A stretch of 64,000 bases of DNA. It comes from Streptomyces sp. f51. GTDB lineage: Bacteria > Actinomycetota > Actinomycetes > Streptomycetales > Streptomycetaceae. The position numbers and the translations under genes were made by a program. Location of the stretch: positions 1,116,001 to 1,180,000 of the forward strand of contig NZ_CP149798.1 of assembly GCF_037940415.1 (NCBI RefSeq), in the 5' to 3' direction. This document shows, piece by piece, positions 15,172 through 23,470 of this stretch. Positions within the stretch are counted from its first letter, which is position 1. Each line of letters opens with the position of its first letter. Under the pieces are notes generated by a model, which made no database searches, had not been told where the DNA came from, and saw only the letters and a program-made list of their open reading frames with translations.

Positions 15172-15870
15172 ATGCGCCTCGGAGCCGCCGTCCTCGCGTC
15201 CGCGTCCCTGTTCGCCCTGGCCCCGAGCGGGCCGCCGCCGGTCGCCGTCCTGCCCGCGCGGCTGGCCGACACCGGCGGCGGGTCCCAGCTCGTCACCGCC
15301 GAGGCGCCGCGCGCGGACGCGACCTCGGGGACCCTGTCCTGGTGGGACCTGCGGGGCGGACGCTGGGTGCGGGCCGGCTCCGCGCCCGCGCGGTTCGGGG
15401 CGCGCGGACTCGTCGAGGGCGGGGCCCGGCGCCAGGGCACGAACACGACACCCACCGGGCTGTACGAACTGCCGTACGCGTTCGGGATCCGGGCGGCACC
15501 GGAGAGGACCGCGATGCCCTACCGCCGGGTGCACCAGGACTCCTGGTGGTGCCAGGACAACGCCTCCCGGTCGTACAACCGGTGGACCGAGCCGCGCCCG
15601 GCGGACTGCCGGGCCGCGGAGTCCGAGCACCTGATCGGCTACGCCGGGCAGTACGCGTACGCCCTCGTCGTCGGCTTCAACTACGAGCGGCCGGTGCGGG
15701 GGCGCGGCGCGGGGATCTTCCTTCACGTCGACGGGAGCGGGCCCACGGCCGGGTGCGTGTCCGTGCCCGAGGACGCGATGCGGAGGATCCTCGCGTGGGC
15801 CGATCCGGCGCGCGGACCGCACATCGTCATCGGCACGACGGGCGGGGAGACGGCCCTCACCCGGTACTGA
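15172..15870 (+). CDS. Secreted L,D-transpeptidase-like (YkuD-fold) protein
   Basis: 232 residues with an N-terminal signal peptide (about 1-25). Near the C-terminus HVDGSGPTAGCVSV provides the His and Cys of the YkuD catalytic motif, preceded by the strand GAGIFL. Such enzymes cross-link or trim peptidoglycan peptides. Its body is typical of an actinobacterial subgroup of about 230 residues without LysM or Ig-like domains. It overlaps no neighbour but ends only 13 bases before the convergent histidine kinase gene. Confidence 0.8.
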   Translation: MRLGAAVLASASLFALAPSGPPPVAVLPARLADTGGGSQLVTAEAPRADATSGTLSWWDLRGGRWVRAGSAPARFGARGLVEGGARRQGTNTTPTGLYELPYAFGIRAAPERTAMPYRRVHQDSWWCQDNASRSYNRWTEPRPADCRAAESEHLIGYAGQYAYALVVGFNYERPVRGRGAGIFLHVDGSGPTAGCVSVPEDAMRRILAWADPARGPHIVIGTTGGETALTRY

Positions 15871-15883
15871 CGGGTGATCCCGG

Positions 15884-17401
15884 TCAGGCCGCGGGGAGCC
15901 TGACCGTGAAGACCGTCGCTCCCGGACGGCTCTCCAGGGTGACCGTGCCGTCGTGGGCCTCGACCACGGCCGCCACGATCGACAGGCCGAGCCCCGCCCC
16001 GCTGCCGGAGCCGTCGGCGCGGCGCCGGTCGGCCCGGGTGAAGCGCTCGAAGACACCGGGCCTGACGTCCTCGGGGATCCCTGGTCCGTCGTCGCGGACC
16101 GTCAGCACGGCCTCCTTCCCCGACTGCTCCAGGGACACCGTCACCCGGGTGCCCACCGGCGTGTGGACCCGGGCGTTGGCCAGCAGGTTGGCCGACACCT
16201 GCTGGAGCCGGTGGGCGTCGCCCGTCACCGTCACCGGCTCCTCCGCCAGTTCCAGGACCCAGCGGTGGCCGGGGCCCGCCGCACGGGCGTCGGTGACGGC
16301 GTCGAGGACGAGGAGGGTGAGGTCGACGGGAAGGCGCTCCAGCGGACGGCCGGCGTCGAGGCGGGCGAGCAGGAGCAGGTCGTCGACCATCTCGCCCATG
16401 CGCGCCGACTCGGCGGCGATCCGTTCCAGGGCGCGCGTCACCTTCGGGGGCACCGGGCCGGGGTGCAGCAGCGCGAGCTCGGCGTGGCCGCGGACGGAGG
16501 CGACCGGGGTGCGCAGCTCGTGGCTGGCGTCGGCGGCGAAGGTGCGCAGCCGCTCCTCGCTCGCGTGCCGCTTGGTGAGCGCGTCCTCGACATGGCCGAG
16601 CATGCGGTTGAAGGCGGCGGCGACCCGGCCCACCTCGCTGCGCGGGTCCGACTCGGGCGCCCGTGGAGGCAGTGCCACCTCGCCGCTGGCGAGTGGGAGT
16701 TCGCTGACCCGGGTGGCGGTCGCGGCGACCCGGTTCAGCGGCCGGAGCGAGAAGCGGACCCACAGGGCGCCGGCGACCCCTGCGACCACGAGGGCCACGC
16801 CGAAGACCAGGGAGGCGACGAGTTCCAGCCGGTGGACGGCCGCGTCGACCGGTTCGGTCGGCAGTCCGGTGATCAGGACGTCGCCGTCCTTGCCGGGCGC
16901 CGCCAGGACGCGGTAGTCGCCCAGACCCGACAGACAGACGGTGTGGGCGTGGCCGTCCGCCGGGACCGCGGCCAGGACGCTCTCGTCGCGGGCGGTCGGC
17001 TCCACGTTCCGGACTGCGGTGCCGGAGCCCGGCGGCACGACGGCGGCGTTGGTGACCTCGCCGCCGACCAGCCGTGCCCCGAAGGTGCCGGTGCTCTGGC
17101 GCCGGGTGTCGCCGTGCTCGTCGCCGTCGTGGTCGGACGGTTTGGTCGTGCTGTGCTCCAGGCTCGCGGGGAACCGGGGTCCGGCCTCCTGGAGCTGCTG
17201 GTCGAGGCGGCCGGTCAGGAAGCCGTCCAGTTCGTAGACAGCGGCCAGGCCGACGGCCGCGCAGCTGACGGTGAGGAGGACCAGGAGTCCGGCGGTGAGG
17301 CGGGCCCGCATCGTGCGGGGGCGCGGCAGCGCGCGCAGGACCGCCGACGGCCGCTTCCACCGGCGTCCGGATCCGGCCGTCCTCGGCGTGCCCGGCTTCA
17401 C
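15884..17401 (-). CDS. Two-component sensor histidine kinase with His/Asp-rich sensor loop
   Basis: 505 residues. The first membrane segment (about 31-55) is followed by an extracytoplasmic sensor of roughly 140 residues, a second segment, HAMP and HisKA with DASHELRTPVAS (phospho-His). HATPase boxes follow: NLLANARVH (N), DDGPGIPE (G1) and GSGAGLGLS (G2). The sensor carries DHDGDEHGD at about residues 90-98, a plausible metal-binding loop, and a later HAH. The GTG start overlaps the regulator's stop (GTGA). The pair faces the ferric-reductase-like/FMN cluster, so it probably senses metal or redox stress and controls that cluster. Confidence 0.9.
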   Translation of the reverse strand: MKPGTPRTAGSGRRWKRPSAVLRALPRPRTMRARLTAGLLVLLTVSCAAVGLAAVYELDGFLTGRLDQQLQEAGPRFPASLEHSTTKPSDHDGDEHGDTRRQSTGTFGARLVGGEVTNAAVVPPGSGTAVRNVEPTARDESVLAAVPADGHAHTVCLSGLGDYRVLAAPGKDGDVLITGLPTEPVDAAVHRLELVASLVFGVALVVAGVAGALWVRFSLRPLNRVAATATRVSELPLASGEVALPPRAPESDPRSEVGRVAAAFNRMLGHVEDALTKRHASEERLRTFAADASHELRTPVASVRGHAELALLHPGPVPPKVTRALERIAAESARMGEMVDDLLLLARLDAGRPLERLPVDLTLLVLDAVTDARAAGPGHRWVLELAEEPVTVTGDAHRLQQVSANLLANARVHTPVGTRVTVSLEQSGKEAVLTVRDDGPGIPEDVRPGVFERFTRADRRRADGSGSGAGLGLSIVAAVVEAHDGTVTLESRPGATVFTVRLPAA

Positions 17402-18261
17402 CGGCCCGCCGCCGGCTTGATGACGTACCCGGCGCCCCGGACCGTGTGGATCATCGGATCCCGGCCCGCGTCGACCTTCTTGCGCAGATACGAGATGTAG
17501 AGCTCCACGACATGGGCCTGGCCTCCGAAGTCGTAGGACCAGACGCGGTCGAGGATCTGTGCCTTGCTGAGCACCCGGCGCGGATTGCGCATCAGGAAGC
17601 GCAGCAGCTCGAACTCGGTCGGCGACAGCTCGATCAGGTCGCCGCCCCGGGTCACCTCCCGGGCCTCCTCGTCCATCGCCAGGTCCCCGACGACGAGCCG
17701 CGGGCCCTCGTCCACGCGGCGGGCCATGCCGGCGCGGCGGAGCAGTCCGCGCAGCCGGGCGACGACCTCCTCCAGGCTGAACGGCTTGGTGACGTAGTCG
17801 TCGCCGCCCGCGGTGATGCCGGCGATACGGTCCTCCACCGCGTCCCGGGCGGTGAGGAACAGGACGCAGACGCCCGGCAGCACGGTGTGCAGGTCGCGCA
17901 GCACGGCGAAGCCGTCGGTGTCGGGGAGCATCACGTCCAGGACGACGGCGTCGGGCAGCAGCTCGCGCGCCCCCGCGGCGGCCGAGACGCCGTCGCAGGC
18001 GGTACGGACCTCCCAGCCCTCGTAGCGCAGCGCGCCGGAGAGGACCTCGGCCAGATCCGGGTCGTCGTCGACGACGAGGACCCGCACGGGCGTGCCGTCG
18101 GGCCGGGTGAGCGTCGGCGCCCTGCCTGCCCCGCGCGAGCGGACGGCGCCGTTCCCGGGGGCGTCGGTGGCGGGGGGCTCCGGGGCGGCGGGGTCCGGGG
18201 TGCCGTCCGCGCCCGCGGGTCGGGCCGGCGTGACCTCGGGGTCTGGGGTGGGAGTGTTCAT
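17398..18261 (-). CDS. OmpR-family response regulator
   Basis: 287 residues. A 60-residue Pro/Ala-rich leader precedes the receiver domain with VLVVDDD, the phospho-acceptor in VVLDVMLPDTDGF, and the KPF switch. The C-terminal winged helix ends in VELYISYLRKKVD and VRGAGYVI, typical of OmpR/PhoB. The ATG at 18261 has GGAAG 5 bases upstream; a start at 18276 is possible. It is cotranscribed with the kinase and divergent from the redox cluster. The intergenic region holds three direct repeats with 11-base period, the kind of site OmpR dimers bind. Confidence 0.93.
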   Translation of the reverse strand: MNTPTPDPEVTPARPAGADGTPDPAAPEPPATDAPGNGAVRSRGAGRAPTLTRPDGTPVRVLVVDDDPDLAEVLSGALRYEGWEVRTACDGVSAAAGARELLPDAVVLDVMLPDTDGFAVLRDLHTVLPGVCVLFLTARDAVEDRIAGITAGGDDYVTKPFSLEEVVARLRGLLRRAGMARRVDEGPRLVVGDLAMDEEAREVTRGGDLIELSPTEFELLRFLMRNPRRVLSKAQILDRVWSYDFGGQAHVVELYISYLRKKVDAGRDPMIHTVRGAGYVIKPAAGR

Positions 18262-18310
18262 GTCGTCTTCCAGCATCGCTCCTGACGGGGGCCGCTCCCC
18301 GCCTCACGGC

Positions 18311-18329
18311 CTCTGAGTTTCCTCTGAGT
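18311..18329. promoter_or_regulatory. OmpR-type direct repeat, site 1
   Basis: CTCTGAGT at 18311-18318 and again at 18322-18329, an exact 11-base period, 50 bases upstream of the regulator start. Confidence 0.68.
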
Positions 18330-18417: not shown

Positions 18418-18441
18418 CGTTCAGAGCGTCCTCAGAGGTTC
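18418..18441. promoter_or_regulatory. OmpR-type direct repeat, site 3 (inverted orientation)
   Basis: TCAGAG at 18421-18426 and 18432-18437. Read on the minus strand this is CTCTGAGG-N3-CTCTGAAC, the same motif as site 1 in the opposite orientation. It ends about 45 bases before the first reductase gene. Confidence 0.66.
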
Positions 18442-18485: not shown

Positions 18486-19844
18486 ATGACCACGGTGTAC
18501 GAGCGGGCCGACCCGCGCACGGCACGAGGACGCGGGCGGCCCCGGCCCTCCCCCGCGGGACCGCTGCTCGCCCTGCTGTGGGCCGGAGCGGCCGGTGTCC
18601 TCGCCCTGTGGTGGACGGACACCCCTTCGGTGGTGGGCACGGCCGGCTGGCTGACGGACGCCGGACGGATCGCCGGGCTGCTGTGCGGCTACAGCTGCGC
18701 CGTCCTGGTGGCGCTCATGGCCCGGGTGCCGCTCCTGGAGCGGCGGGTCGGAAGCGACCGGGTGGCCCGCTGGCACGCGATGGCCGGCCGCTACACGGTC
18801 TGCCTGCTGGTCGCGCACGTCACGCTGATCCTCTTCGGCTACGCCGCCCAGGACGGCACGGGCGTCGTGCACGAGACGCTGAGCGTGGTGCTCGACTACC
18901 CGGACATGCTCAAGGCGACGACCGGCACGGTCATCCTGTTCGCCGTCGGGATCACCTCGGCCCGCCTGGCCCGCCGCCGGATCAGCCACGAGTTCTGGTA
19001 CCACGTGCATCTGCTGACGTACGTGGCGGTCTTCCTGGCCTTCTTCCACCAGCTCGCCCTCGGCTCCGACTTCGTCGGCGACCCGGCGGCGCGCGCGGCC
19101 TGGTACACCCTGTACCTCGGCACGGCCGCGCTCGTGGTGTGGTTCCGGCTGCTCGCCCCGGTGCGGCTCAACCGGCGCCACCGGCTGCGCGTGGACTCCG
19201 TGCACCGGGAGTCCCCCGGGGTCTTCTCCGTGGTGATCCGCGGGGAGCGCCTGGACGAACTGAACGCGCGGGCGGGCCAGTTCTTCCGCTGGCGGTTCCT
19301 CGCGGACGGCATGCGGTGGACGTCGACGCCGTACTCCCTGTCGGCGCCGCCCCGGCCGGACCTGATGCGGATCACGGTGAAGGCGCTCGGCGACCACAGC
19401 GCGGCCGTGGGGATGCTGCGGCCCGGCACCCGGGTGTGGGCGGAGGGCCCCTACGGCTCGCTGACCGCGGACCGCAGCAGTACGTCGAAGGCCCTGCTCG
19501 TCGCGGGCGGTGTCGGGATCACACCGCTGCGCGCCCTGTTCGAGACACTGCCCGGCCAGGTCACGCTGCTCTACCGGGCGCGCACGGCCGAGGACCTGGT
19601 GCTCGGCGGCGAACTGGAGGACATCGCGCGGTGGCGCGGGGCCCGCGTCCTGTACGCGCTCAACGGCGCCGACGGCAGCCGTCCGCGGTTCACCGCCGAC
19701 TCGCTGCGCGGGGCCGTCCCGGACCTCGCCGAGCACGACGTCTACCTCTGCGGGCCCCCCGCGATGGCGCGGGACCTGTACGGGGCGCTGCGCGCGGCGG
19801 GTGTCCCCGACCGCCGCATCCACCACGAGTCGTTCGAACTGTGA
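18486..19844 (+). CDS. Ferric-reductase-like transmembrane heme/FAD/NAD(P)H oxidoreductase (copy 1)
   Basis: 452 residues. Five to six membrane segments carry the heme ligand pairs His97/His111 (HX13H) and His175/His188 (HX12H), as in NOX/FRE proteins. The cytoplasmic half has the FAD motif TPYSLSAPP (about 281-289), the NAD(P) motif VAGGVGITPLRAL (339-351) and the terminal LCGPPAM. It would move electrons from NAD(P)H through FAD and two hemes across the membrane. The start at 18486 has AAGGA 7 bases upstream. The next gene, encoding an FMN-binding partner, begins 7 bases after its stop. It is clearly paralogous to the gene at 20457. Confidence 0.9.
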   Translation: MTTVYERADPRTARGRGRPRPSPAGPLLALLWAGAAGVLALWWTDTPSVVGTAGWLTDAGRIAGLLCGYSCAVLVALMARVPLLERRVGSDRVARWHAMAGRYTVCLLVAHVTLILFGYAAQDGTGVVHETLSVVLDYPDMLKATTGTVILFAVGITSARLARRRISHEFWYHVHLLTYVAVFLAFFHQLALGSDFVGDPAARAAWYTLYLGTAALVVWFRLLAPVRLNRRHRLRVDSVHRESPGVFSVVIRGERLDELNARAGQFFRWRFLADGMRWTSTPYSLSAPPRPDLMRITVKALGDHSAAVGMLRPGTRVWAEGPYGSLTADRSSTSKALLVAGGVGITPLRALFETLPGQVTLLYRARTAEDLVLGGELEDIARWRGARVLYALNGADGSRPRFTADSLRGAVPDLAEHDVYLCGPPAMARDLYGALRAAGVPDRRIHHESFEL

Positions 19845-19851
19845 GGCCGCC

Positions 19852-20373
19852 GTGCACGCCCTGAAGAAGAACCGTCCGCTGCGCCGGGTGACGCTGGCCG
19901 CCGCCGCCACGGTCACCGGATTCGTCCTGCTGCTGTCGCTGAAGCCGCACACGGCGCCCACCGCGGCGGGCGCCCCGTCGTCCGTGGGGCGCTCCCCCTC
20001 CTCGTCCTCCTCCGCCCCCTCGTCCTCGTCCTCGTCACCCGGCGGCTCGTCCGGGAACTCCTCGGGAACGTCCGGCGGTTCGAAGAGCACGGGGGCCGCC
20101 CGGACCGTCACCGGCGATGCGGTGCAGACCCGTTGGGGTCCGGTCCAGGTGCGGATCACGCTGAAGGACGGCCGGATCACCGAGTCCGCGGCGGTCGCCC
20201 GTCCTTCGGGAAATCCCCGGGACCAGGAGATCAACAGTTACGCGATTCCCCAGCTCAGGCGCGAGACACTGGCCGCGCAGAGTGCGCAGATCGACTCGGT
20301 GTCCGGAGCCACCTACACGAGCGACGGATACAAGCAGTCACTCCAGTCCGCACTCGACTCGGCCGGCCTCTGA
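19852..20373 (+). CDS. Membrane-anchored FMN-binding domain protein, one flavinylation site
   Basis: 173 residues from a GTG 7 bases after the preceding stop. Twin arginines (11-12) come before a hydrophobic segment (13-31) that anchors or exports it. A long Ser/Gly linker (41-80) leads to a single FMN-binding domain ending in DSVSGATYTS, where Thr154 is the predicted site of covalent FMN attachment by ApbE. It would accept electrons on the outside from the heme protein encoded just upstream. The start was chosen from the KKNRPLRR lead shared with the second FMN-binding protein. Confidence 0.88.
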   Translation: MHALKKNRPLRRVTLAAAATVTGFVLLLSLKPHTAPTAAGAPSSVGRSPSSSSSAPSSSSSSPGGSSGNSSGTSGGSKSTGAARTVTGDAVQTRWGPVQVRITLKDGRITESAAVARPSGNPRDQEINSYAIPQLRRETLAAQSAQIDSVSGATYTSDGYKQSLQSALDSAGL

Positions 20374-20456
20374 ACGCACGCGCGTCGCGGACCGTATCTC
20401 TGGGCCAGGGGGCCACTCCCCTCACCCCGTCTCTCCAGGACGAACACGGAGGAACC

Positions 20457-21836
20457 GTGTCCACGATCGCCGGTGGTCGCGCCGCGCGGCGCCAGACCAT
20501 GCGCCGAATCCGCCCTCGCCGCTCGCCCGCCGTCCCGCTGCTGATCGCCGTCTGGGCCGGTGCCGCCGCCGTCCTGTGGCTGTGGTGGAACAACACCCCG
20601 TCCATCGCGGACAACAACGGCAGGATCCTCAACGCCGGCCGCATCACCGGGCTGCTCGCCGGGTATCTGATGGCGCTCGTGGTGCTCCAGATGGCCCGCG
20701 TCCCCGCCCTCGAACGCCGTGTGGGATCCGACCGGGTGGCGCGCTGGCACGCGATGACCGGCCGCTACACCATCTGCATGGTCCTCGCCCATCTCTTCCT
20801 GACGATGTGGGGCTACGCCCTCCAGTCCGGCAAGGGGCTCGGCGGGATCGTGCAGCAGACCGTCGACTCGGTCAACCAGCTGCCCGACATGGGCAAGGCC
20901 GCGATCGGCACGGGCCTGCTCGTGCTCATCGGCTTCATCTCCGTCGGCTGGCTGCGCCGGCTGATCCCGTACGACACCTGGTACCACGTCCACCTGCTGA
21001 CGTACGCCGCGGTGTTCCTGACGTTCTGGCACCAGCTGTCCACCGGCAACGACTTCGCGGTGGAGCCCGTCGCCAAGACCGTCTGGTACGGGCTCTACGG
21101 TTCGGTGACCGCGCTGGTCATCTGGTACCGAATCCTTTCTCCGGTCCGGCTGAACCTGAAGCACCGGATGCGGGTCCAGGCCGTCATCGAGGAGACGCCC
21201 GGCATCGTGTCGGTGCTGATCAGCGGACGCAAGCTGCACCGGATGGGTGCCGAGGCCGGACAGTTCTTCCGGTGGCGCTTCCTGGCGCCGGGCATGCGCT
21301 TCAGCTCCCACCCGTACTCGCTGTCGGCGGCCCCGCGCCCCAACATGCTGCGCATCACGGTGAAGGCGATCGGCGACCACAGCGCCGCCCTGCGCGACCT
21401 GGAGCCGGGCACCCGGGTCTGGGCCGAGGGCCCGTACGGCGCCCTGACCGCCGGCAAGCGCAGCCGCGGCAAGGTGCTCCTGGTGGCGGGCGGTGTCGGC
21501 ATCACCCCGATGCGGGCGCTGTTCGAGACCCTCCCCGGCGCCTCCGGCGACCTCACCCTGCTCTACCGGGCCAACACCACCCAGGACCTGGCCCTGTGGG
21601 ACGAACTGGCCGCCATCTCCAAGGAGCGCGGGGCGCGTCTGATGTACGCGGTCAACAGCCCCGAGGGCGAACGGCCGGACATCTCCGCGGACTCCCTGCG
21701 CCGCAAGCTGCCCGACATAGACCGCCACGACGTCTTCATGTGCGGGCCGCCGGGCTTCGCCCAGGAGGTGTACGCGGCACTGCGCGGCGCGGGGGTCCCC
21801 GCCCGCCGCATCCATCACGAGTCGTTCGAGATGTGA
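20457..21836 (+). CDS. Ferric-reductase-like transmembrane heme/FAD/NAD(P)H oxidoreductase (copy 2)
   Basis: 459 residues, closely similar along its whole length to the gene at 18486. Heme ligand candidates are His98/His112 and His179/His192. FAD motif HPYSLSAAPR, NAD(P) motif VAGGVGITPMRAL and MCGPPGF are all intact, so both copies should be active. GTG start at 20457 with GGAGGA 4 bases upstream. It is followed 19 bases later by the two-domain FMN-binding protein gene. The repeated reductase/FMN-protein order points to duplication of a two-gene unit. Confidence 0.9.
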   Translation: MSTIAGGRAARRQTMRRIRPRRSPAVPLLIAVWAGAAAVLWLWWNNTPSIADNNGRILNAGRITGLLAGYLMALVVLQMARVPALERRVGSDRVARWHAMTGRYTICMVLAHLFLTMWGYALQSGKGLGGIVQQTVDSVNQLPDMGKAAIGTGLLVLIGFISVGWLRRLIPYDTWYHVHLLTYAAVFLTFWHQLSTGNDFAVEPVAKTVWYGLYGSVTALVIWYRILSPVRLNLKHRMRVQAVIEETPGIVSVLISGRKLHRMGAEAGQFFRWRFLAPGMRFSSHPYSLSAAPRPNMLRITVKAIGDHSAALRDLEPGTRVWAEGPYGALTAGKRSRGKVLLVAGGVGITPMRALFETLPGASGDLTLLYRANTTQDLALWDELAAISKERGARLMYAVNSPEGERPDISADSLRRKLPDIDRHDVFMCGPPGFAQEVYAALRGAGVPARRIHHESFEM

Positions 21837-21855
21837 GCGACGGGAGTCAGGAACG

Positions 21856-22686
21856 ATGAAGAAGAATCACCCCATACGGCGCTTCGTGCTGGCCAGCGCC
21901 GCCACCGTGTCCGGGATCGTGCTGCTGCTGGCGCTCAAGCCGGCCTCCGACCCGGCCGCCGCGTCGGCGCAGGCCGGCGCGGTGCCCCAGCAGAGCGGTG
22001 CCGCTCAGGGCGCGCCCCAGCGCGGCACCGCCGAGCAGGCGGGTGCCGCCACCGTCCTCGGTGACGTGGTGCAGACCGAGTACGGGCCGGTCCAGGTGCG
22101 GCTGACGATGAGCGGCGGCAAGATCACCAAGGCGGACGCGGTCCAGGCGCCCAAGGGCGGGACCAGCGACCAGAAGACCGCGCTCTCGGTGCCCAAGCTC
22201 AACCAGGAGGCCGTCACGGCGCAGAGCGCCGACATCGACTCCGTCTCGGGAGCGACCTACACCAGCGGCGGTTACAAGAAGTCCCTCCAGTCCGCTCTGG
22301 ACAAGGCGAAGAAGGCGGGCGGGGCGCCGGCCTCCTCCGGGTCGGCCGGCTCTTCCGGGTCCGCCGGGTCCGCCGGGTCCTCGGGCAAGGCCCCCGCGGC
22401 CCCGGCCGCTCAGGCCCGCGTCGTCACCGGGACCGTGTCCGACACCCAGTACGGACCCGTACAGGTCCGGCTCACCCTCTCCGGCAAGAAGATCACCAAG
22501 GCCGAGGCGGTCCAGGCCCCCAAGGGCGGGCTCAGCGACCAGAAGACCGCTCTCGCCGTGCCCAAGCTCAACGGGGAGGCCGTCGCGGCCGGCAGCGCCC
22601 ACATCGACAGCGTCTCCGGCGCCACCTACACCAGCGAGGGCTACAAGGAGTCCCTCCAGTCGGCCCTGGACAAGGCCGGTGTCTGA
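21856..22686 (+). CDS. Membrane-anchored protein with two FMN-binding domains
   Basis: 276 residues. A KKNHPIRRF start with twin arginines 8-9 and a hydrophobic segment (10-28) resembles a Tat-type anchor. Two similar FMN-binding domains follow, each ending in DSVSGATYTS; Thr134 and Thr257 are the predicted flavinylation sites. A Ser/Gly/Ala linker (about 154-185) joins them. Two covalent FMNs in series would extend the electron path away from the membrane. The ApbE gene overlaps its end by 8 bases, so flavin transferase and substrate are made together. Confidence 0.92.
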   Translation: MKKNHPIRRFVLASAATVSGIVLLLALKPASDPAAASAQAGAVPQQSGAAQGAPQRGTAEQAGAATVLGDVVQTEYGPVQVRLTMSGGKITKADAVQAPKGGTSDQKTALSVPKLNQEAVTAQSADIDSVSGATYTSGGYKKSLQSALDKAKKAGGAPASSGSAGSSGSAGSAGSSGKAPAAPAAQARVVTGTVSDTQYGPVQVRLTLSGKKITKAEAVQAPKGGLSDQKTALAVPKLNGEAVAAGSAHIDSVSGATYTSEGYKESLQSALDKAGV

Positions 22687-23470
22687 GCCCGCGCAGGACG
22701 CGCCCCAGGAACTGCGCCACGCCGAGGAGGTGATGGGCACCGTCTTCTCCTTCGACGTGCGCGGCGGCGAACCCGAGGCCGTGCGCACGGCGTTGGGCGA
22801 GGCGATCGCCGGACTCCACCGCGTGGACGCGGTGTTCAGCACCTACCGCGAGGACAGCCAGATCTCCCGGCTGGCCCGCGGGGAACTCACCGTCGAGGAG
22901 TGCGATCCGGAGGTCGCCGAGGTCCTGGGCCTCGGCGCCGAGGCCGAGCGTGTCAGCGACGGCTGGTTCAGCACCCGTTACGAGGGGCGGATCGATCCCA
23001 CCGGGATCGTCAAGGGCTGGGCGGCGGAGCGCGCGGCCCGGCACCTCGCCGCGGCCGGCGTGAGCGGAGTGAGTGTCAACGGCGGCGGTGACGTCCAGCT
23101 GCGCGGTGTCCCCGGACCGCACCGCCCCTGGCGGGTGGGCGTGTCCGACCCGCTGCGTCCGGGCTCGCTGGCCGCCGTGATCTCCGCGGCCGGCGTCGAC
23201 GAGCTGGCCGTCGCCACCTCGGGCACCGCCGAACGCGGCGCCCATATCGTCGACCCGCGCACGGGGAAGTCGGCGGTCACCGACCTGCTGGCCGTGACCG
23301 TGGTGGGCCCCCGTCTGACCTGGGTGGACGCCTGGGCGACCGCGGCCTTCGCGATGGGCTCGCGGACGGGCCTCGACTGGCTGGAGTCGCTCCCGGACGT
23401 GGAGGCGCTGCTCATCACGGCCGGCAACGAGGTCCGGTGCACGGGAGGACTCGCCCGGCGTCTGGGCTGA
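22679..23470 (+). CDS. apbE: ApbE-type FMN transferase, without a recognisable export signal
   Basis: 263 residues. ApbE motifs are VMGTVFSFDV, FSTYREDSQISRLA, DPTGIVKGWA, SGTAERGAHIVDPRTG and the metal-binding DAWATA. It transfers FMN from FAD to Thr in the SGAT motifs of the two FMN-binding proteins upstream. The GTG start overlaps the previous gene by 8 bases. The N-terminus (SEPAQDAPQELRHAEE) is hydrophilic, with neither lipobox nor Tat or Sec signal, which differs from many periplasmic ApbE proteins and suggests a cytoplasmic enzyme. Confidence 0.93.
   Translation: MSEPAQDAPQELRHAEEVMGTVFSFDVRGGEPEAVRTALGEAIAGLHRVDAVFSTYREDSQISRLARGELTVEECDPEVAEVLGLGAEAERVSDGWFSTRYEGRIDPTGIVKGWAAERAARHLAAAGVSGVSVNGGGDVQLRGVPGPHRPWRVGVSDPLRPGSLAAVISAAGVDELAVATSGTAERGAHIVDPRTGKSAVTDLLAVTVVGPRLTWVDAWATAAFAMGSRTGLDWLESLPDVEALLITAGNEVRCTGGLARRLG

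Follow-up and report, generated by a model that had tools for sequence, protein, structure and literature searches.

One question raised by a flavin-dependent gene cluster of Streptomyces sp. f51 is how electrons taken from the cytoplasm are delivered to covalently bound flavins outside the membrane, and how both the attachment of the flavin and the expression of the carriers are organised. The cluster lies in a 64-kb stretch of contig NZ_CP149798.1 (the window), in a genome of 8.15 Mb, and contains two genes for ferric-reductase-like proteins (FRE1 and FRE2), each followed by a gene for a flavin mononucleotide (FMN)-binding protein (FMN1 and FMN2), and one gene for the flavin transferase ApbE. 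We think it rather probable that these genes specify two paralogous transmembrane electron-export units sharing a single flavin transferase, that the unit associated with a histidine kinase and response regulator is the inducible half, and that flavinylation occurs in the cytosol. Proteins with several covalent flavins are widespread, and their roles have been described as largely unknown (PMC10339131). With a sensor of its own, a single operator region and halves that can be separated, the cluster would offer a direct handle on such a system, in that the kinase signal may lead to the electron acceptor, and the natural long and short forms of the cluster at one chromosomal site are ready-made comparisons.

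Composition and extent of the cluster

The original prediction had delimited a set of five genes, two reductases each preceding an FMN_bind protein and then one ApbE. All five open reading frames (ORFs) are indeed present with matching Pfam domains, the HX13H and HX12H histidine pairs occur in FRE1 and FRE2 alike, and the three DSVSGATYTS motifs, one in FMN1 and two in FMN2, place the predicted flavinylated threonines exactly where they had been assigned (Table 1). Both FMN proteins thus combine an FMN_bind domain with the Dxx[ST]GA[TS] motif of ApbE-flavinylated proteins. As a degenerate DNA pattern the motif has three matches in the window, all within the cluster, and none in 100 shuffles, while searches at E <= 0.001 reveal no further FMN_bind domain or ApbE gene elsewhere in the genome. 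The five-gene boundary was nevertheless drawn too narrowly, leaving out a divergent kinase/regulator pair and the repeats preceding FRE1.

The search for the same gene order in other Streptomyces, which had been suggested at the outset, was based on 80 loci fetched around the ApbE gene, the best 80 of 473, of which 78 are titled Streptomyces and two 'Actinobacteria bacterium'. FRE2 is present in 77, the base for the FRE1 and kinase counts; in the other three (L033, L070, L071) the contig stops at ApbE. FRE1-FMN1 occurs in 32 of these 77. The kinase/regulator pair accompanies FRE1-FMN1 in all 30 loci on a long enough contig (in L008 and L058 the contig stops short of its position) and is found in none of the 45 loci lacking FRE1, the 33-36% identical, downstream matches in L022 and L059 being scored as absent. 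The divergent pair is part of the cluster unit and belongs to its FRE1-FMN1 half. With argD located downstream of the cluster in 76 of the 80 loci, this linkage identifies one chromosomal site occupied either by a long form (kinase-regulator, then divergently FRE1-FMN1-FRE2-FMN2-ApbE) or by a short form (FRE2-FMN2-ApbE). Eight loci that are copies of others were removed from the gap, pocket and arginine-pair counts given below; copies may remain in the kinase-neighbourhood, tree, ApbE-start, distance and FMN1-remnant counts, identical FRE proteins having been removed.

Table 1. Genes and candidate regulatory elements of the cluster (positions within the window)
Feature	Coordinates	Strand	Description
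Sensor histidine kinase	15884..17401	-	HAMP, HisKA and HATPase_c domains; linked to FRE1 in all testable loci
Response regulator	17398..18276	-	OmpR/PhoB type; Response_reg and Trans_reg_C domains
Operator candidate	18311..18328	+	CTCTGAG-N4-CTCTGAG, 11-bp direct repeat; conserved
Second operator-candidate copy	18420..18437	-	one mismatch; beside FRE1
FRE1	18486..19844	+	diheme ferric-reductase/NADPH oxidase-type membrane protein with NAD(P)H domain (Pfam, motifs, alignment)
FMN1	19852 (GTG)..20373	+	N-terminally anchored; one FMN_bind domain; predicted flavinylation at Thr154
FRE2	20457 or 20499..21836	+	FRE1 paralog; GTG behind GGAGG, alternative ATG at 20499
FMN2	21856..22686	+	anchored; two FMN_bind domains; predicted flavinylation at Thr134 and Thr257
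ApbE	22679..23470	+	short FAD:protein FMN transferase; no visible signal peptide

The reductases and the electron path

FRE1 and FRE2 are 60% identical and both carry the Pfam domains Ferric_reduct and NAD_binding_1, with FAD_binding_8 listed for FRE2 only; translation of FRE2 probably begins at the GTG codon. The four heme-ligand histidines are invariant in all 197 distinct relatives aligned. The structural model of FRE2 (mean predicted local distance difference test score, pLDDT, 87.5) superimposes over its full length on the bacterial NADPH oxidase SpNOX (PDB 8qt6, 8qq7), with Z 34.1 and a root-mean-square deviation (rmsd) of 2.9 over 393 residues, at a sequence identity of 18%; SpNOX is not known to have an FMN_bind partner. 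We infer that each FRE would transfer hydride from NAD(P)H in the cytosol to flavin adenine dinucleotide (FAD) and pass single electrons via two hemes to the outer face of the membrane, where, as family and fold suggest, the anchored FMN_bind protein would receive them. This order of carriers, already proposed in the original prediction, fits the domains, the SpNOX-like model of FRE2 and the behaviour measured for a close homolog, SaFMN3 of Streptomyces azureus (PMC10339131). Other parts of that interpretation fared less well: nothing in the analysis supports the suggestion that the two lines act in series, and nothing specific to this locus points to metal reduction.

The terminal acceptor might nevertheless be a metal, the FMN proteins reducing Fe(III) (or Cu) at the surface for assimilation or protection and the kinase sensing that metal. 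Such a role, which we consider unlikely, would accord with the family name, with the link of 153 MsrQ-like flavinylated clusters to VIT1 (PMC8238504), and with the sensor part of the kinase, where a conserved run of acidic residues lies close to a His. Yet no match to an iron-box consensus within three mismatches was found in the window, which is a weak test, and among 18 kinase-linked loci no neighbour family is shared by more than 3. To a similar, low degree of probability the chain could end on O2, as in an NADPH oxidase, with the resulting superoxide or H2O2 used in signalling, in wall chemistry or in competition, SpNOX being the closest solved whole-length fold. Against this, reactivity with O2 is common among reduced flavoproteins, and direct reduction of O2 by the outer heme would seem to leave no need for covalent FMN domains. 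The reduced form of SaFMN3 does react with O2 (PMC10339131).

The flavin pockets of the two lines

The FMN2 domain matches PDB 8p2a with E 7e-37, an entry identified through residue numbering as the second domain of SaFMN3 (SaFMN3-D2), whose published numbering the FMN2 residues fit. The structure of SaFMN3-D2 was solved with FMN on Thr; the flavin is stacked against Tyr14 of that domain and is contacted at N5 by Ser42 (PMC10339131). Among distinct FMN2 domains Tyr14 is retained in 249/250 and Ser42 in 247/250, whereas FMN1 domains, which have a one-residue insertion relative to FMN2, carry Trp14 (45/49) and Asp42 (48/49). Tyr14 together with Asp42 characterises the kinase-linked units with their own ApbE (14/14 and 9/14, respectively) and domains from other families (11/17 and 14/17), so that each paralog seems to have altered one of the two pocket residues. 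These conserved differences lend support to the earlier suggestion that the two lines are specialised. On their account FMN1 may have a redox potential different from that of FMN2, the two proteins bearing differently tuned flavins; the one measured value, -184 mV, applies to SaFMN3 alone (PMC10339131).

Streptomyces also has FRE-FMN clusters of a third type, deeper than the others and likewise linked to a kinase and regulator (L157-L159, L161, L165 and L166), with Lys at pocket position 14 in 9/9 domains, position 42 deleted, and an N-terminal Lys-Arg (KR) pair. In another locus (L131, genome G020) FMN2 is seemingly split across two reading frames beside ApbE, which is either real or an assembly error.

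Where the flavin is attached

The ApbE protein of 263 residues matches its Pfam family with E 2e-45, albeit in two parts (positions 1-73 and 125-266) with about 50 residues in between missing, a split shared by many of the listed Streptomyces matches. Its model (mean pLDDT 91) aligns with Ftp of T. pallidum at Z 29.5 and an rmsd of 2.1 over 253 residues, and the invariant columns of the ApbE alignment are retained; the ApbE fold is thus kept. In 142 of 145 loci the ApbE core starts 15-74 nt downstream of the FMN stop codon, and in the 25 rows inspected no hydrophobic stretch was found in up to 30 residues upstream of that core, nor was the signal or lipobox of the classical secreted lipoprotein ApbE found at the N-terminus. 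The FMN proteins, by contrast, have N-terminal hydrophobic anchors, and an Arg-Arg pair (RR) directly before, and a Lys directly after, the hydrophobic h-region are present in 157/157 scored FMN1 and FMN2 sequences, six FMN2 ORFs with no detectable h-region falling outside this count. Together these features suggest that flavinylation takes place in the cytosol, the site of FAD synthesis, with ApbE acting there, and that the flavinylated domains are then exported folded, as holo-domains, via a signal anchor resembling those of the twin-arginine translocation (Tat) system.

Several observations weigh against this proposal. The third-type FMN proteins have KR in 6/6 cases and only 10/17 FMN proteins from other families have RR; and since the inspected ApbE rows of those families also lack a signal peptide, RR does not always accompany a cytosolic ApbE. 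Most ApbEs are secreted and cytosolic ones have intracellular targets according to a JBC 2025 review (PMC12052999), and works cited by Tong et al. describe flavin transferases as extracellular (PMC10339131). One could then suppose that ApbE acts outside after export by a non-classical route, or that flavinylated FMN proteins pass the general secretory (Sec) machinery, RR being a mere positive-inside anchor feature, a possibility that the replacement of RR by KR or other residues in related clusters would favour. We nevertheless regard it as the less plausible course, given the invariance of the RR and Lys flanks in the scored FMN1 and FMN2 sequences and the lack of an extra gene: the ORF list shows no sixth gene within the cluster, flavin transporters elsewhere in the genome not having been searched for. 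Should cytosolic ApbE combined with Tat export be correct, it would explain the supply of flavin without an exporter, contrary to the usual picture of a secreted ApbE.

A candidate local switch for the FRE1 half

The sensor part of the kinase lies outside the cytoplasm and spans some 120-130 residues (limits set by eye), without a conserved Cys among 66 aligned kinases; the kinase would sense an envelope signal, rendering the FRE1-FMN1 half inducible. In a survey of 121 Streptomyces genomes, of which 61 have an FMN_bind match, kinase-like genes (cut-off E <= 5.6e-58) define 37 strong loci including the window, and in 33 of these a FRE1-type gene adjoins the pair. Long forms account for 15 of the 33, and units that have an ApbE of their own but no argD in the fetched stretch for 14; ApbE is missing next to the genes in three (L123-L125), and L140 lies by argD without FRE2-FMN2. 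Two of the remaining four (L117, L144) are cut by contig ends and a third (L151) has a more distant FRE, with ApbE in another order. Members of other actinobacterial families (L096-L098, L108) likewise have the pair next to a FRE gene, with regulators 74-82% identical.

Between regulator and FRE1 lies the only exact match of the genome to the CTCTGAG repeat pair; three one-mismatch sites elsewhere are taken as chance, two of them checked by ORF list only. The surveyed loci provide 64 distinct regulator-FRE1 gaps, and among the 61 of at least 100 bp the exact pair occurs in 43 and a pair with at most one mismatch in 56 (with genome copies included, 45/64 and 59/64), as compared to 0.0000 and 0.0008 pairs per gap, respectively, in base-shuffled controls. 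Same-strand spacings of up to 40 bp are 11 bp in 55/63 cases. The 121 Streptomyces genomes contain 33 exact sites in 30 genomes. Of these sites, 11 lie elsewhere and 22 (20 genomes) at this gap, one of the latter on the far side of the regulator where the contig ends; the reversed control pattern has a single match. Across 296 genomes of the phylum there are nine exact sites, of which three are at this gap in genomes already counted. Before FRE2 the repeat pair is found in 0/33 long and 0/45 short loci, with one half-site in one short locus.

Given this concentration of the repeats at one gap, the kinase/regulator pair looks like a local, dedicated switch, in which the regulator would bind the CTCTGAG direct repeats and drive the divergent promoters. 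It has to be weighed against this assignment that L146 has kinase and regulator without an adjacent FRE1, and that five of the 61 gaps (L137, L141, L148, L096, L097) have no pair within one mismatch. We would only tentatively extend the whole arrangement to a general actinobacterial scheme, in which a cytosolic ApbE serves Tat-exported holoproteins without a flavin exporter and one of two parallel wires is switched on by a dedicated two-component system via a single genomic operator region.

An exact repeat pair in another genome (G116, contig C279, 7584-7601) has a kinase-like gene some 0.7 kb away whose reading frame contains two TGA stops, possibly the relic of a related system.

History of the two halves

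A tree of 100 FRE proteins, built by a quick method and with flags on long branches, places FRE1 and FRE2 in two distinct starred clades across Streptomyces. These unite in a starred clade of 62, to which L134 also belongs but none of the 13 other complete kinase-linked units. Judged from these sequences the two reductases are old paralogs, and the description of the cluster as duplicated modules was apt in that sense, a recent in-place tandem duplication in this strain being rejected in view of the two clades.

The presence of FRE1 requires 12 changes on the FRE2 tree. Of the 57 short loci tested (from 56 genomes, L167 repeating L054), 19 retain ahead of FRE2 a decayed 3' end of FMN1 that scores above all 60 of the locus's own base shuffles, while the 38 others failed this test. 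Across 27 long loci the distances of FRE1 and FRE2 are correlated (r 0.67, with 0/2000 permutations as high; FRE2-argC 0.45). Such agreement of distances, together with the FMN1 remnants, disfavours an independent insertion of the kinase-regulator-FRE1-FMN1 half in each long-form strain, and loss accounts for at least part of the FRE1-half pattern. Relocation also occurs, as L123-L125 carry the FRE1 half elsewhere. FRE2-FMN2-ApbE would represent the persistent core, and the kinase-linked FRE1-FMN1 genes a separable half.

The clearest remnants, in L053 and L042, are near-intact FMN1 3' ends upstream of FRE2 and mark recent loss of the kinase-FRE1 half.

Repeated loss, both in the changes on the tree and in the decayed FMN1 tails, shows that the FRE1 half is dispensable, and one might conclude that FRE1-FMN1 is simply a redundant copy with no separate role. 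We hold this to be improbable, as a regulator pair and repeats belong to this half specifically, none of the four heme histidines has been lost from FRE1, and the pocket differences are conserved over 49 FMN1 and 250 FMN2 distinct domains. Compensation of FMN1 loss by a third FMN2 domain was likewise considered and rejected. At least three FMN2 domains are found in 39/53 tree rows without FRE1 versus 4/33 with it (eleven short loci and two long ones, in which the domains could not be counted cleanly, are left out), but this difference lacks significance on the tree, with only six supported independent pairs and a median p of 0.5.

Relation to known systems

Clusters of this kind are already known, as MsrQ-like flavinylated systems of Actinobacteria and as SaFMN3-type multi-flavin proteins. 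The MsrQ-like class comprises 1797 clusters, mostly from Actinobacteria, 1437 of them with an NAD-binding domain (Meheust 2021, eLife, PMC8238504), and combines a PF01794 membrane protein with FMN_bind and ApbE. Here, PF01794 lies within five genes of FMN_bind and ApbE, the signal being judged by the N-terminal hydrophobic anchors of FMN1 and FMN2, and both FRE proteins have the C-terminal NAD-binding domain (PF00175) of the majority. The present cluster differs from the MsrQ-like description in having a single ApbE for both FRE paralogs and a two-component system alongside; the terms 'histidine kinase', 'response regulator' and 'Tat' do not occur in the main text of PMC8238504. SaFMN3 (Tong et al. 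2023, PMC10339131) resembles FMN2 in its domains and in covalent FMN on Thr, but has three domains in one protein where FMN2 has two, and its accessible text contains neither 'operon' nor 'ferric'. A cytosolic ApbE without signal peptide is also found in Klebsiella, where its target is a cytosolic fumarate reductase (PMC12052999), whereas here the sole FMN_bind targets found in the genome have N-terminal hydrophobic anchors.

The published CutR site TAWATAAA (PMC12802291) differs from the CTCTGAG repeats. In the literature searched, which largely excluded subscription papers, no description of the kinase/regulator or the repeats was found, and a word search of the available text of a review of S. 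coelicolor two-component systems (PMC9739842) gave no mention of either. At the outer edge of the cluster a gene for a YkuD L,D-transpeptidase (15172-15870) is present in 57 of the 80 loci, in long and short forms alike.

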